From the NCBI GenBank assembly GCA_022562615.1, contig JADFOW010000006.1, forward strand, positions 1-41,563: a stretch of 41,563 bases of DNA, written 5' to 3'. The notes below the pieces were generated by a model, which saw only the letters and a list, made by a program, of their open reading frames with translations, had not been told where the DNA came from and ran no database searches. Positions 17,053 to 37,871 of this stretch are shown piece after piece. The translations under genes were made by a program, and so were the position numbers. This DNA is from Nitrososphaerota archaeon. GTDB lineage: Archaea; Thermoproteota; Nitrososphaeria; Nitrososphaerales; Nitrosopumilaceae. Positions within the stretch are counted from its first letter, which is position 1, and each line of letters opens with the position of its first letter.

Positions 17053-17535
17053 TTAATTATATTTTAGTTGGGTTACATCTAAAACACGTGCACAATATCT
17101 ACACTTGAGTACTCTTCCTTCTTTGTCAATTACGTCCATTATAGATTCAATGTGCTCATGACTATTAGTAATACATTCAGGATTAGAACACCGAAAAATC
17201 CTATCTATCTCATTTGGAAGTGAGACTCTTCTTTTTTCTACTAGCTTGTAATTTTTGATGATGTTAATTGTGGCCTTGGGGGCAATTACTGCCAGTTTGT
17301 TGGTGTCATCATCAGCTAGAAACTTGTTTTCCACTTTGATAATGTCTTTTTTCTTAAATTTCCCACTTGGGACATTTAATGCAATAGTGATGAGGCTTCC
17401 ATCTGTGCCATCAATTTGAAGGGCTGCCAATACTTGAAGACCTTTTCCTTCATCAATGTGATCAATTACCGTTCCTTCTTTGATTCGTCGAACCATTAGT
17501 TCGGACTCTTGCATCAGAATACTTTGTATAGTCAC
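17053..17535 (-). CDS. pyrI: Aspartate carbamoyltransferase regulatory subunit
   Basis: MVRRIKEGTVIDHIDEGKGLQVLAAL; zinc site CSNPECITNSHEHIESI...CRYCARVL. Confidence 0.96.
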   Translation of the reverse strand: MTIQSILMQESELMVRRIKEGTVIDHIDEGKGLQVLAALQIDGTDGSLITIALNVPSGKFKKKDIIKVENKFLADDDTNKLAVIAPKATINIIKNYKLVEKRRVSLPNEIDRIFRCSNPECITNSHEHIESIMDVIDKEGRVLKCRYCARVLDVTQLKYN

Positions 17536-17555: not shown

Positions 17556-18485
17556 GTGAACGATTTCTACAACAAGGATCTCATTTCAATTAAAGATTAC
17601 AACAGAGATCAATTTGAGAAGATCTTTGAGTACACTGAAAAGATAATGAATATGGATCCCACTAAAAGAAGAGAAATCTGTAAAGGAAAAACTTTGAGCT
17701 ACTTATTTTATGAACCAAGTACCAGAACTCGTCTTAGCTTCGAGTCTGCCATTGCTTCAATTGGGGGCAATTCTTTGGGAATTTCTGATATTTCATCGTC
17801 TTCTGCCCAGAAAGGTGAGAGCCTTGCAGATACTGTTAAAATAATGTCCATCTATTCAGATGTACTAGTTTTAAGACATCCACTTGATGGCTCTAGTAGA
17901 TTTGCCTCTGAGATTTCATCAAAACCTGTAATTAATGCAGGAAGTGGAACTGAAGAACATCCAACGCAAGCCATACAAGACTTGTTTACAATTAAAAAAG
18001 AAAAGAAAAAGATTGATGGATTAAAAATTGGCATTATAGGTGATTTAAAATATGGTAGGACCGTTTATTCACTTTTATCTGGTCTTGGAAACTATGATGT
18101 TGAAGTCCATTTGATTTCTCCAGAGTCGTTACGAATAAGATCAGACTCTATTTATGAAATAAGAAAAAAACTATCCTTTACTGAATCTACAGACCTTGAA
18201 GAACACATTGAGGATCTTGATGTAATTTATGTAACAAGAATTCAAAAAGAAAGGTTCCCAGATGAGGAAGAATATCTCAAGGTAAAGGGAAGCTATGTAA
18301 TTGGACTTGATTTGCTTCAAAAGATGAAAGACGATTCCATAATTTTACATCCTCTGCCAAGACTAGATGAAATTTCTACAGATATTGATAACACAAAAAA
18401 TGCAAAGTATTTCCAACAAGCTGAATATGGAAAACATACTCGTGCTGCTTTGTTGGGTTTAACTCTCAATGAAAATGGGTTCTGA
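17556..18485 (+). CDS. pyrB: Aspartate carbamoyltransferase catalytic subunit
   Basis: LFYEPSTRTRLSFESA, VLRHPLDGSS, EHPTQAIQDLFTI, GDLKYGRTVYSL, HPLPRLDEI. Confidence 0.97.
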   Translation: MNDFYNKDLISIKDYNRDQFEKIFEYTEKIMNMDPTKRREICKGKTLSYLFYEPSTRTRLSFESAIASIGGNSLGISDISSSSAQKGESLADTVKIMSIYSDVLVLRHPLDGSSRFASEISSKPVINAGSGTEEHPTQAIQDLFTIKKEKKKIDGLKIGIIGDLKYGRTVYSLLSGLGNYDVEVHLISPESLRIRSDSIYEIRKKLSFTESTDLEEHIEDLDVIYVTRIQKERFPDEEEYLKVKGSYVIGLDLLQKMKDDSIILHPLPRLDEISTDIDNTKNAKYFQQAEYGKHTRAALLGLTLNENGF

Positions 18486-32335: not shown

Positions 32336-33142
32336 ATGAAAGTGGCAATTGTTCAGTTTAAGGCTTCTACTAACAAAGAAACTAATCTAAAAAAAATTCT
32401 CAATTATATTTTAAAGGCAGCTCAAAACAAAGCAACACTTGTCGCCTTTCCAGAATTTATGATGTTTTACACAGCCTCTTCTCAAACACCAAAAAAATTA
32501 GCGAGTTTGGCTGAAACCATTAATGGTAATTTTGTAACCACAATTGCAAATACAGCAAAAGAAAATCAAATTCAAGTTATAGGTTCATTTTATGAGAAAA
32601 GCACAAAAAAAGACCGCGTCTATGACACCTCATTTATAATTGACAAATCAGGCAAAGTAATCTCAACTTACAGAAAGATTCACCTGTATGACGCTTTAGG
32701 ATTTAGAGAATCAGACAAAATGACATCAGGATCAAAGATTGCTAAACCAGTAACGACATCAATTGGTAAAGTTGGAATGATGATTTGTTATGACTTGAGG
32801 TTTCCTGAAATGTCAAGATCACTTGCTGCTGCAGGTTCTGAAGTTTTAGTTGTACCATCTGCATGGGTAAAGGGTTACATGAAAGAAGAACACTGGTTAA
32901 CAATAAACAAAACTCGTGCTATTGAAAATGGATGTTATGTTATAGCGCCTGATCAAGTAGGAAATATCTATTGTGGACGAAGTATTGTAGTTGACCCGTA
33001 TGGTAAGATTCTTCTTGATATGAAAAAGAAACAAGGAATAGGATATGTTAACATTGAATTAAAAAAAATAAAACAGGTTCGGAAAGTGCTTCCTTTGCTT
33101 AAACACCGAAGAACAGATGTTTATCCTACTTTGAAGGCTTAG
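32336..33142 (+). CDS. Carbon-nitrogen hydrolase (nitrilase/Nit family)
   Basis: FPEFMMFY, KIHLYDALGFRESD, GMMICYDLRFPEMSRSLAAAGSEVLVVPSAW. Confidence 0.93.
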   Translation: MKVAIVQFKASTNKETNLKKILNYILKAAQNKATLVAFPEFMMFYTASSQTPKKLASLAETINGNFVTTIANTAKENQIQVIGSFYEKSTKKDRVYDTSFIIDKSGKVISTYRKIHLYDALGFRESDKMTSGSKIAKPVTTSIGKVGMMICYDLRFPEMSRSLAAAGSEVLVVPSAWVKGYMKEEHWLTINKTRAIENGCYVIAPDQVGNIYCGRSIVVDPYGKILLDMKKKQGIGYVNIELKKIKQVRKVLPLLKHRRTDVYPTLKA

Positions 33143-33593
33143 ACTTTCTGCTTTTGCAATTAAAGTTTGAGCATTGTTTAGTCCACTTTTGTTTTCTTGA
33201 ATAACGAAAAATTATCATTGGCCATTGACATTCCTCACATGGCACTTTAATTGCGCGAAGTTTTGCTTTTTGAAAAAGAGGAGATGATGCCTTGCATCCA
33301 CCATAAAAATTCGAACAACCAATGAATCTTTTTTTGGTTACCCTTGATCGAATAACCATCAACTGGCCAAGTTTACACTCCGGACATTGAACTAGTCCTT
33401 TCTTTGGGGAATTTGTTCCCAAAATAATGTACTTTCTCTCTCTGGAGGACCAGGAAAGAAACCCATTGCTATCAAAGTATTGAATGATCTCTTTTTTGAA
33501 AATTGAAATTTTTGATTTTGTAGTCCTTACGGTATGTCTCTCTTTTTTCTCTTTTACTTGGATGGTCTGAAGCTGTACTTTTTTTACCAACAT
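33126..33593 (-). CDS. Standalone topoisomerase IA-type zinc-ribbon protein
   Basis: CPECKLGQLMVIRSRVTKKRFIGCSNFYGGCKASSPL and CEECQWPMIIFRYSRKQKWTKQCSNFNCKS. Confidence 0.82.
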   Translation of the reverse strand: MLVKKVQLQTIQVKEKKERHTVRTTKSKISIFKKEIIQYFDSNGFLSWSSRERKYIILGTNSPKKGLVQCPECKLGQLMVIRSRVTKKRFIGCSNFYGGCKASSPLFQKAKLRAIKVPCEECQWPMIIFRYSRKQKWTKQCSNFNCKSRKSKPSK

Positions 33594-35242: not shown

Positions 35243-35404
35243 ATGTCTGTAGAAGTAACATGTGGAAAATGTGGTGAAAAGATCACAAAAATGAAAATGC
35301 TCAAATCTCTAAAAGATGTAATGAAACCTTACAACAGAAAGTGTCCTTCATGTGGAACAACATTATCAGTCTCTGAATTTTCTCTTGATGTTCAAAAAAA
35401 ATGA
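35243..35404 (+). CDS. 53-aa zinc-ribbon protein
   Basis: MSVEVTCGKCGEKITKMKMLKSLKDVMKPYNRKCPSCGTTLSVSEFSLDVQKK; CxxC...CxxC; absent from the ORF track. Confidence 0.78.
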   Translation: MSVEVTCGKCGEKITKMKMLKSLKDVMKPYNRKCPSCGTTLSVSEFSLDVQKK

Positions 35405-35511
35405 TCTAATTTTCAGAAAAATAATCTCAACCGATCAAGAAATGATCCAAACGCATTAAAAAATGATCTAATTTTTAAAAAAAATAATCCAAACCCCAAA
35501 TTTTGATCAAA
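35402..35511 (+). promoter_or_regulatory. Array of five GATC-core motifs upstream of the ATP-cone/HTH protein
   Basis: TGATCTAAT, CGATCAAGA, TGATCCAAA, TGATCTAAT, TGATCAAAT at 35402, 35432, 35443, 35464, 35504; two embedded copies of aatgatctaatttt...aataatc. Confidence 0.5.
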
Positions 35512-35562
35512 TTTTCTAAAAAACTAACAAGTCACAAGTCTTAATTACTCCTTTTTTTAGTC

Positions 35563-37662
35563 TTGAATATGGATATGATGGGAGAGCTAGAAGAAATAAC
35601 GAAAGGTAGCATTCTTCAATCAACATCAAAACGAGTTAGAATGATCTTTTCTGTCATGGCAAGTCCTAACAGAATAGATATCTTGAGAATTTTAAATTCC
35701 AAGGGTCCTTTGACCTACTCTGAATTAAAATCCCTTGCTGGATTTAAATCAAAAAAAGAGAGTGGTAAATTTGCATACCATCTAAGAAAATTATTAAGAC
35801 AGTCACTTGTTGCATTAAACAAATCTGAAAGACGTTATACAATCACAAATCTCGGAAAACTTGTTTTGAGCTTGGCTAGACAAATTGAAGAAAGATCTAT
35901 TATTGAAAGTGGAAAAATGTATGTTAGAACATCTCAAGAATCTATTGAGGAATTTAATTCCCATAAAATCATCCAATCCCTTGTTAGAGAAGGAAGTCTT
36001 CCATTAGAACTAGCCCAAAAAATTACTGAAGAAGTTGAAAATAGAATTTACAAATATCAGACTACATATCTTACTGGCGCATTAATACGAGAAATGGTCA
36101 ACTCTGTACTCTTAGAACATGGTCATGAAGAGTATCGCAATAAACTGGCACGCCTAGGCCTGCCTGTATATAATGTCCAAGAAATGCTCACAAACTTAGA
36201 CAATGTAGGAAATGGCGCAGATAGTTTGTTATTTACTACTGGTCAGAAAGTGTTTGCAGAGTACCTCCTAACTAACCTCTTACCAAAAGATGTTGCAGAT
36301 TCTCACCTTTCTGGAGATTTACACATAACAAATCCTGGTATTTGGTCAATGATTCCAGATACAATTTTTGTAAATGTAAAAGAGCTCATTGAAGATGGAA
36401 TTATTCTTGGTGGAAAATATCTTGATGTGTCAAGAGTACCATCGTCAAAATCCCTTGATGATATTACAGCATCTTTGTCTGTAATCATTTCTCTACTTTC
36501 AAAAGAAGTTTCACAAGAAATTGTACTTGATGGAATGGTTTCATTGTTTAGCAAACATTCAAAGAATGTTGAAGAACTTGAACAAAAATTAATAAATGCA
36601 TTTGCTACTGCATCTACAACTCCAAATTACAATAAAATGAATACTAATGTTTCAATTAGACTTGCTCTAGGATCTGATACAAAAATTATTATTGCAATAA
36701 TTAATGCATACCAAAATTACACAAAGATAACACCAATTCCAAAGATTGGTTTGATCATCGATTATTCTAAAGGAAAGATTACTGATGTTTCAGAGAAAGC
36801 AGCCGAAATAATTTCAAATGGAGGAAAGATAACATTTACCAAAAATCAAATTTCAAGTTATGGAATTACAAATGGTACAACTAAAAACACCAGACCACTC
36901 GCAATTACCTTGCAATCTGTTTCAATAAATCTTCCAAGACTAGCATTTGAATCAAACAAAGATGAAACTTACTTTAGAGCAAGACTTGCACTGCTTATGA
37001 AACCAGCATTATCCTCTATGGCCTTAAGAAAGAAAGACATCTCTGATCTTACTAGGAGAGGATTGAATCCTATACTTGCAAAGAACACCCAATATATGCA
37101 AAGAAGTTCAATTTCTCTTGTTATCAATCTAGTAGGCCTAAAAGAAGCAGTCTTTAACATCCTAGGTTATAAAAACAACAAAGACGGCAGAGCGATACTT
37201 CATAAAGTAATAGAGACAGCAGTGGATGTTGCCGCCAAAAAAGGTAAGGAAATAGGTGATCCAGTCTTTATATCAATGATTGAGACTGATGGATCTAGAA
37301 GATTCACTACCCTTGATGGTGAAAAATACGGTAAGAATTCTGCCCTAAATACTACGGAAACTGATTCCTACTCACAAGGGATAATTCTTAATGCCTCTGA
37401 AGTTGGTGGATATACCAGCAAAAGTGATGAAATTATAGAGTGCAACAAATTATCAAAGATTCTAAATGGTGGTCTTTCAGTCAGTCTGCAAATTGCTGAT
37501 GACGCTAAAATTATTGATATCAAAAAATCAATAGAAAAGACAGCAGAATTGACGAATTCATTCAAACCAGTAAAGAGTATTGCTATCTGTGGCGAGTGTG
37601 GATTTAAAGACGAACCCTTTACAGACAAATGTCCAAAGTGTAAGTCACCTTACATAGTGTAA
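35563..37662 (+). CDS. Winged-helix + ATP-cone + NrdD-like + Zn-ribbon protein; predicted non-catalytic, possibly regulatory
   Basis: N-terminal wHTH (MASPNRIDILRILNSKGPLTYSELKSLAGF); ATP-cone (YVRTSQESIEEFNSHKIIQSLVREGSLPLELAQKITEEVENRIY); NrdD-like segments (HLSGDLHITNPG, LQSVSINLPRLAFES, LNGGLSVSLQI); terminal CGECGFKDEPFTDKCPKC; no glycyl-radical motif. Confidence 0.82.
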   Translation: MNMDMMGELEEITKGSILQSTSKRVRMIFSVMASPNRIDILRILNSKGPLTYSELKSLAGFKSKKESGKFAYHLRKLLRQSLVALNKSERRYTITNLGKLVLSLARQIEERSIIESGKMYVRTSQESIEEFNSHKIIQSLVREGSLPLELAQKITEEVENRIYKYQTTYLTGALIREMVNSVLLEHGHEEYRNKLARLGLPVYNVQEMLTNLDNVGNGADSLLFTTGQKVFAEYLLTNLLPKDVADSHLSGDLHITNPGIWSMIPDTIFVNVKELIEDGIILGGKYLDVSRVPSSKSLDDITASLSVIISLLSKEVSQEIVLDGMVSLFSKHSKNVEELEQKLINAFATASTTPNYNKMNTNVSIRLALGSDTKIIIAIINAYQNYTKITPIPKIGLIIDYSKGKITDVSEKAAEIISNGGKITFTKNQISSYGITNGTTKNTRPLAITLQSVSINLPRLAFESNKDETYFRARLALLMKPALSSMALRKKDISDLTRRGLNPILAKNTQYMQRSSISLVINLVGLKEAVFNILGYKNNKDGRAILHKVIETAVDVAAKKGKEIGDPVFISMIETDGSRRFTTLDGEKYGKNSALNTTETDSYSQGIILNASEVGGYTSKSDEIIECNKLSKILNGGLSVSLQIADDAKIIDIKKSIEKTAELTNSFKPVKSIAICGECGFKDEPFTDKCPKCKSPYIV

Positions 37663-37720: not shown

Positions 37721-37733
37721 TACGATTATCGTA
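37721..37733. promoter_or_regulatory. Perfect palindrome upstream of nrdJ
   Basis: TACGAT-T-ATCGTA just upstream of a TATA-like atatatt; another TACGAT half-site at 37685-37690. Confidence 0.5.
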
Positions 37734-37871
37734 AAATTGAATATATTGTGTTGGTATGAATTTCATAATAGAAGTGTTAAAAAAATTGACTAGCGAAAGG
37801 GACAAGATCAAAACTTTTCGAGCACATAAGTTATATCCACATTCATTCTAACCCTTGCGGGGAGATTATAA

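Follow-up and report, generated by a model that had tools for sequence, protein, structure and literature searches.

A catalytically dead, NrdD-derived winged-helix protein encoded beside ribonucleotide reductase genes in Nitrososphaerales archaea: a likely transcription regulator

A 699-residue archaeal protein derived from NrdD, the class III anaerobic ribonucleotide reductase (RNR), is likely to be a transcription regulator of RNR genes, analogous to bacterial NrdR and standing outside the NrdR family; its DNA binding, target, effector and sign of action are inferred. Since it joins a dead reductase to a DNA-binding domain and is encoded beside whichever working reductase the cell uses, it is probably a switch for the supply of DNA precursors. 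The gene of this protein, hereafter the regulator, lies in a stretch of 41,563 nucleotides from a Nitrososphaerota archaeon of the Nitrosopumilaceae (contig JADFOW010000006.1), and this whole stretch is referred to as the window. The control of RNR genes has been worked out in bacteria, with NrdR, and NrdR is rare in archaea (PMC9110341).

The open reading frame of the regulator is intact and single-copy in a genome of 1.54 Mb. Its features and the reductase gene that follows are listed below.

35563-37662, forward strand: gene of the regulator, 699 aa, with a TTG start and an alternative ATG at 35569
35620-35892, forward strand: winged-helix domain, residues 20-110 (Pfam HTH_20 / DUF7347 at 28-102)
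35917-36135, forward strand: ATP-cone, residues 119-191 (Pfam PF03477, 35.8 bits with a cut-off at 25.8, E 1.2e-08)
36214-37542, forward strand: NrdD-derived, catalytically dead region, residues 218-660 (Pfam, PDB profile, hhalign and Foldseek)
36865-36867, forward strand: position of the thiyl-radical cysteine (E. coli C384), Ile here; the codon is approximate, by alignment
37588-37641, forward strand: C676, C679, C690 and C693, a Zn site homologous to that of NrdD and not followed by a glycyl-radical loop
37872-40520, forward strand: nrdJ, the putative target, encoding a class II ribonucleotide reductase (TIGR02504 match of 723.6 bits, cut-off 399.95)

All Pfam matches of the regulator (HTH_20, DUF7347, ATP-cone and NRDD) exceed their curated cut-offs; HTH_20 reaches 32.6 bits against a cut-off of 27, and NRDD covers residues 218-695 with an E value of 9.7e-22. 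A preliminary description, made from sequence alone, had proposed an ArsR-like winged helix, an ATP-cone and an NrdD-like region in the 699-aa protein at 35563-37662, cysteines limited to a single one plus the four of a terminal ribbon, and class II nrdJ as the next gene. The domain order held upon Pfam, hhalign and Foldseek analysis, the cysteines number exactly five, and the identity of nrdJ was confirmed with TIGR02504. Regulator and nrdJ are separated by about 210 bases on the same strand, and the NrdJ of the window has an ATP-cone of its own according to Pfam. For the predicted structure model of the regulator the mean pLDDT is as low as 53.7, with the barrel better, and a separate model of winged helix plus ATP-cone (pLDDT 44.8) was too low for use. 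Two other small genes were recorded nearby: a 53-codon frame upstream of the regulator (35243-35404, forward strand), with four cysteines in two CxxC pairs and conserved across ammonia-oxidiser loci, and a 155-aa protein (33126-33593, reverse strand) in which two topoisomerase-type C4 zinc ribbon stretches fall just under the Pfam cut-off.

Homology of the regulator to NrdD is certain. An hhalign comparison matched a profile of 26 relatives to one built from 14 true NrdDs across 652 columns, with an E value of 5.4e-96, and a PDB profile search with the relatives returned NrdD structures from 1.3e-34, the sole other match being a weak ribosomal zinc-ribbon. With the predicted model, which is of modest confidence, all 33 Foldseek matches below 1e-3 (the top 33) were NrdD, the best with an E value of 3.6e-15. 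In a tree with E. coli NrdD as its root, the 48 regulators group together in a clade with an SH-aLRT support of 99 that is nested next to a single lineage of archaeal NrdD (support 96), and within this clade the ammonia-oxidiser proteins form one of their own (support 99). Descent from NrdD with a single origin is shown, while the detailed branching order remains unsure because several branches are long.

The loss of catalysis is shown by a residue alignment of 48 winged-helix relatives with 19 NrdDs, including that of E. coli. Equivalents of E. coli C175, C384 and G681 are present in 19 of 19 NrdDs. The window protein has Ile at the thiyl-radical position and Thr at that of the second active-site cysteine (C175); no RxxGY was found in it, and the chain, which stops right after the last Cys pair, terminates before the position of the loop. 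Equivalents of C175 and RxxGY, sought by alignment, occur in none of the 48 winged-helix relatives; a cysteine at the C384 position is retained in a few only (L121, L125, L166 and perhaps L133), and the complete catalytic set is found in 0 of 48 across the archaeal phylum. A remnant of the radical loop is still recognisable in some relatives, for example SRVSAK as compared with SRVTGY in NrdD. The earlier claims that the glycyl-radical motif is missing and that reductase activity is unlikely were thus borne out by the alignment with the 19 NrdDs. Its claim of a terminal four-Cys zinc ribbon requires correction: the ribbon is present, and since its cysteines align with those of the NrdD Zn site (E. 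coli C644/C647/C662/C665) it is the inherited C-terminal site of NrdD itself; the reading as an added module was rejected.

Purifying selection on the regulator gene is also shown. The dN/dS ratios, computed for the window gene against eight close relatives, are 0.006 for the winged helix, 0.033 for the ATP-cone, 0.08-0.10 for the outer NrdD parts and 0.19 for the middle. No other region is nearly as constrained as the winged helix: a 70-residue core is letter-identical in 106 sequences, and in five relatives from a different family of the same order (L112, L113, L114, L116 and L163) the domain is 95-96% identical, with 22-53% identity in the NrdD part. Some aberrant forms were also recorded. 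The regulator frame is split in L165 (5426-7500) and L076 (1864-4029), with a TGA in G312, through decay or sequencing error, and nrdJ is still downstream; shortened regulators of 535-602 aa without the Zn site occur in L140, L142, L144, L146 and L149, in most of which a NAC-like gene adjoins the regulator on the opposite strand.

The neighbourhood of the regulator was then compared across lineages. Among ammonia oxidisers 123 loci could be judged, and in 122 of them nrdJ is the next gene downstream on the strand of the regulator; L164 is the exception, and two further loci end too early. In other lineages the slot after the regulator is filled by three NrdD lineages or by two other NrdJ types: NrdD type A, placed after a small glutaredoxin, in L121, L125, L167 and L168, type B in L150 and L151, type C in L166, and NrdJs unlike the ammonia-oxidiser type in L115 (31-34% identical) and L128 (39-43%). 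L121 and L166, which share a genus code, have regulators that are 95% identical and intervening NrdDs that are 27% identical, and pyrB and pyrI flank beyond nrdD in both. The partnership of regulator and RNR gene thus outlives replacement of the RNR, and a constant regulator beside a variable reductase fits the prediction for a regulator of whichever RNR is used. The synteny with nrdJ that the preliminary description had put forward for checking was therefore found as a linkage to RNR genes that is conserved even across such replacement. It had named conserved catalytic residues, the lack of a match to NrdD or to a winged helix, and the lack of both linkage with RNR and DNA binding as results that would refute it, and none of these was obtained. 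As a separate observation, a broken piece of a glutaredoxin gene lies between the regulator and the replaced nrdD in L166 (5057-5300), left behind by the exchange of the enzyme.

Outside the ammonia oxidisers, many relatives have no RNR neighbour and converge on pyrB or a NAC gene. Direct convergence on pyrB is frequent in loci without RNR (nine loci or lineages), several with pyrI beyond, and this convergent arrangement means that pyrB and the regulator are not in one transcript. In L111, L112, L114 and L163, pyrB lies just past nrdJ. The window itself carries a divergent pyrI/pyrB-like pair (17053-17535, reverse strand, and 17556-18485, forward strand) about 17 kb upstream of the regulator; as this pair sits just beyond the RNR gene in relatives, an old cluster has seemingly been pulled apart here.

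The distribution was examined in a sample of 401 genomes of the archaeal phylum, with only a viral scan outside it. Within this sample the regulator is present in all listed Nitrososphaerales genomes, and many other families of the phylum have more distant forms, in which the winged helix and the ATP-cone are joined to the whole NrdD region or to a part of it. NrdJ is present in all ammonia oxidisers, in which the search for the NrdD family gave one weak match only, which fits the regulator itself. A search with TIGR00244 found no NrdR in the genome of the window or in any listed ammonia oxidiser. Of 251 genomes, 18 were found to have NrdR, and 17 of the 18 belong to family f5, where several copies lie directly upstream of nrdD; because this family carries NrdR as well, NrdR and the regulator need not be exact substitutes. 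The viral scan (IMG/VR) gave two contigs with an NrdD-like match (L172 and L173), and L172 was rejected as a viral copy of the regulator, appearing to be an ordinary archaeal dithiol-type NrdD without winged helix. A Nitrosopumilus-type regulator with nrdJ is also present in loci L041 and L092, whose records bear the names Phycisphaerales bacterium and Proteobacteria bacterium and are probably wrongly binned contigs.

Three elements between the regulator and nrdJ were considered as candidate operators, all of them unproven.

37721-37733, no strand: inverted repeat TACGATTATCGTA, unique in the genome at one mismatch or fewer; unproven candidate operator
37755-37767, no strand: inverted repeat TATGAATTTCATA, the only exact copy in the genome; unproven candidate operator
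37774-37790, forward strand: GTGTTAA-N5-TTGAC, conserved before nrdJ in Nitrosopumilaceae; unproven candidate operator

Both inverted repeats are conserved in Nitrosopumilus-like genomes, and GTGTnAA-N5-TTGA occurs in 74 of 107 intergenics when up to one mismatch is allowed, compared with 1.5% of shuffles, a figure that cannot be taken as a probability since the intergenic sequences are related. The inverted repeats were absent when looked for in genera with 99-100% identity in the winged helix (L170 and L171), and none of the three elements was found in loci of the Nitrososphaeraceae-like type (L112-L116). No operator is claimed, because the repeats are missing despite this near-identity of the winged helix and nothing is shared with the Nitrososphaeraceae-like loci. 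The stretch before the regulator gene (35396-35523) contains three copies of a AAAAAATGATCTAATTTT-like repeat, and GATC-containing 8-mers are common to this stretch and the region upstream of nrdJ.

The following mechanism is proposed. A duplicated copy of an ancestral archaeal NrdD would have become incapable of radical chemistry and acquired a winged helix at the N-terminus; this domain is inferred to bind DNA in the vicinity of the reductase gene that follows. The ATP-cone, the dead reductase barrel, or both may report the nucleotide or dNTP pool and alter this binding, and by analogy with NrdR, plentiful dNTPs would probably lead to repression of nrdJ and possibly of the regulator's own gene. 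ATP-cones usually begin with a basic pair. This position is Thr-Ser in the regulator, so that nucleotide binding by its ATP-cone is not assured. The role suggested in the preliminary description, an NrdR-like regulator with the inactive reductase fold as an additional sensor, is supported as a whole, with DNA binding and nucleotide sensing inferred; the sensing half remains an inference because the DNA/nucleotide step lacks a test and the basic pair of the ATP-cone is changed. A bolder reading, which we entertain but would not quite favour, is that a whole radical reductase became a transcription factor whose dead barrel still binds the allosteric effectors of RNR, perhaps also substrates, and signals the dNTP state to the winged helix; the regulator would then be an ancient, phylum-wide dNTP sensor that holds the RNR slot while the enzyme swaps between class III and class II.

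Against regulation of RNR genes it can be objected that there are no DNA-binding or expression data and that a near-invariant winged helix could mean many targets. The regulator might accordingly be a broader regulator of nucleotide metabolism or a global one, acting for example on pyrBI and many other genes, with the RNR neighbour being one target or a frozen ancestral arrangement. The near-invariance of the winged helix would be expected if many sites had to be kept, and the direct convergence on pyrB in nine lineages points the same way, as does the position of pyrB past the RNR in further lineages, ammonia oxidisers among them. We consider this explanation unlikely, as the gene that follows on the same strand is time and again an RNR gene, exchanged for other RNRs and not for unrelated genes. 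Less likely still is an inactive reductase subunit that contacts NrdJ for added allosteric control, its winged helix being a protein-protein module. The retained reductase scaffold and the adjacency to nrdJ would suit such a role; however, the NrdJ of the window already has its own ATP-cone, the partner switches among unrelated class II and class III reductases while the regulator stays, and constraint that is strongest on the winged helix is hard to account for without DNA.

The two remaining explanations can be all but dismissed. An active or unusual class III reductase would agree with homology that spans the whole length of NrdD, but the thiyl cysteine, the second active-site cysteine and the glycyl-radical loop are missing, and the window protein scores 71.9 bits with TIGR02487 (NrdD), below the cut-off of 326.35; an active NrdD variant was rejected on the residue evidence. 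A decaying NrdD pseudogene kept by chance could be argued from the loss of the Zn site in lineages L118 and L164, the stop in L165 (G312) and the forms reduced to 535-620 aa in families f12, f17 and f33. It was rejected on the dN/dS values of every domain and on the stretch identical in 106 sequences, with frames open almost everywhere, and for the ammonia oxidisers it is already refuted.

As a regulator of RNR genes, the protein would offer a concrete and testable candidate for archaeal RNR control in the abundant ammonia oxidisers, given its presence in all listed Nitrososphaerales genomes of the sample. The apparent conversion of an enzyme fold to use in a transcription factor is also unusual. 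Annotation pipelines could easily label the protein as an anaerobic reductase and thereby misstate the physiology of oxygen-dependent organisms. Neither this family nor an archaeal counterpart of NrdR was found described in the open-access literature searched (subscription journals were outside its scope).

Compared with NrdD, the regulator shares the ATP-cone, the barrel and the C-terminal Zn site, in sequence profile and fold, whereas it is without the thiyl cysteine, the C175 equivalent and the glycyl-radical loop and has an added winged helix. With ArsR/SmtB-like regulators (HTH_20, DUF7347) it shares the winged-helix core; unlike them, it has no metal-binding cysteines in this domain, and the metalloregulator model reaches 23.6 bits against a cut-off of 55. 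NrdR (TIGR00244), the bacterial repressor of RNR genes, resembles it in an ATP-cone joined to a DNA-binding domain and in adjacency to RNR genes, and in Streptomyces coelicolor nrdR adjoins class II nrdJ (PMC9110341). NrdR, however, has about 150 aa and binds DNA by an N-terminal Zn ribbon, whereas the regulator has a winged helix, for which DNA binding is inferred, a C-terminal Zn site derived from NrdD, a full reductase fold attached and a different domain order, and TIGR00244 gave no match in it. The regulator therefore belongs to neither the NrdR nor the NrdD family; its architecture is substantially new, and its NrdR-like role is an inference.
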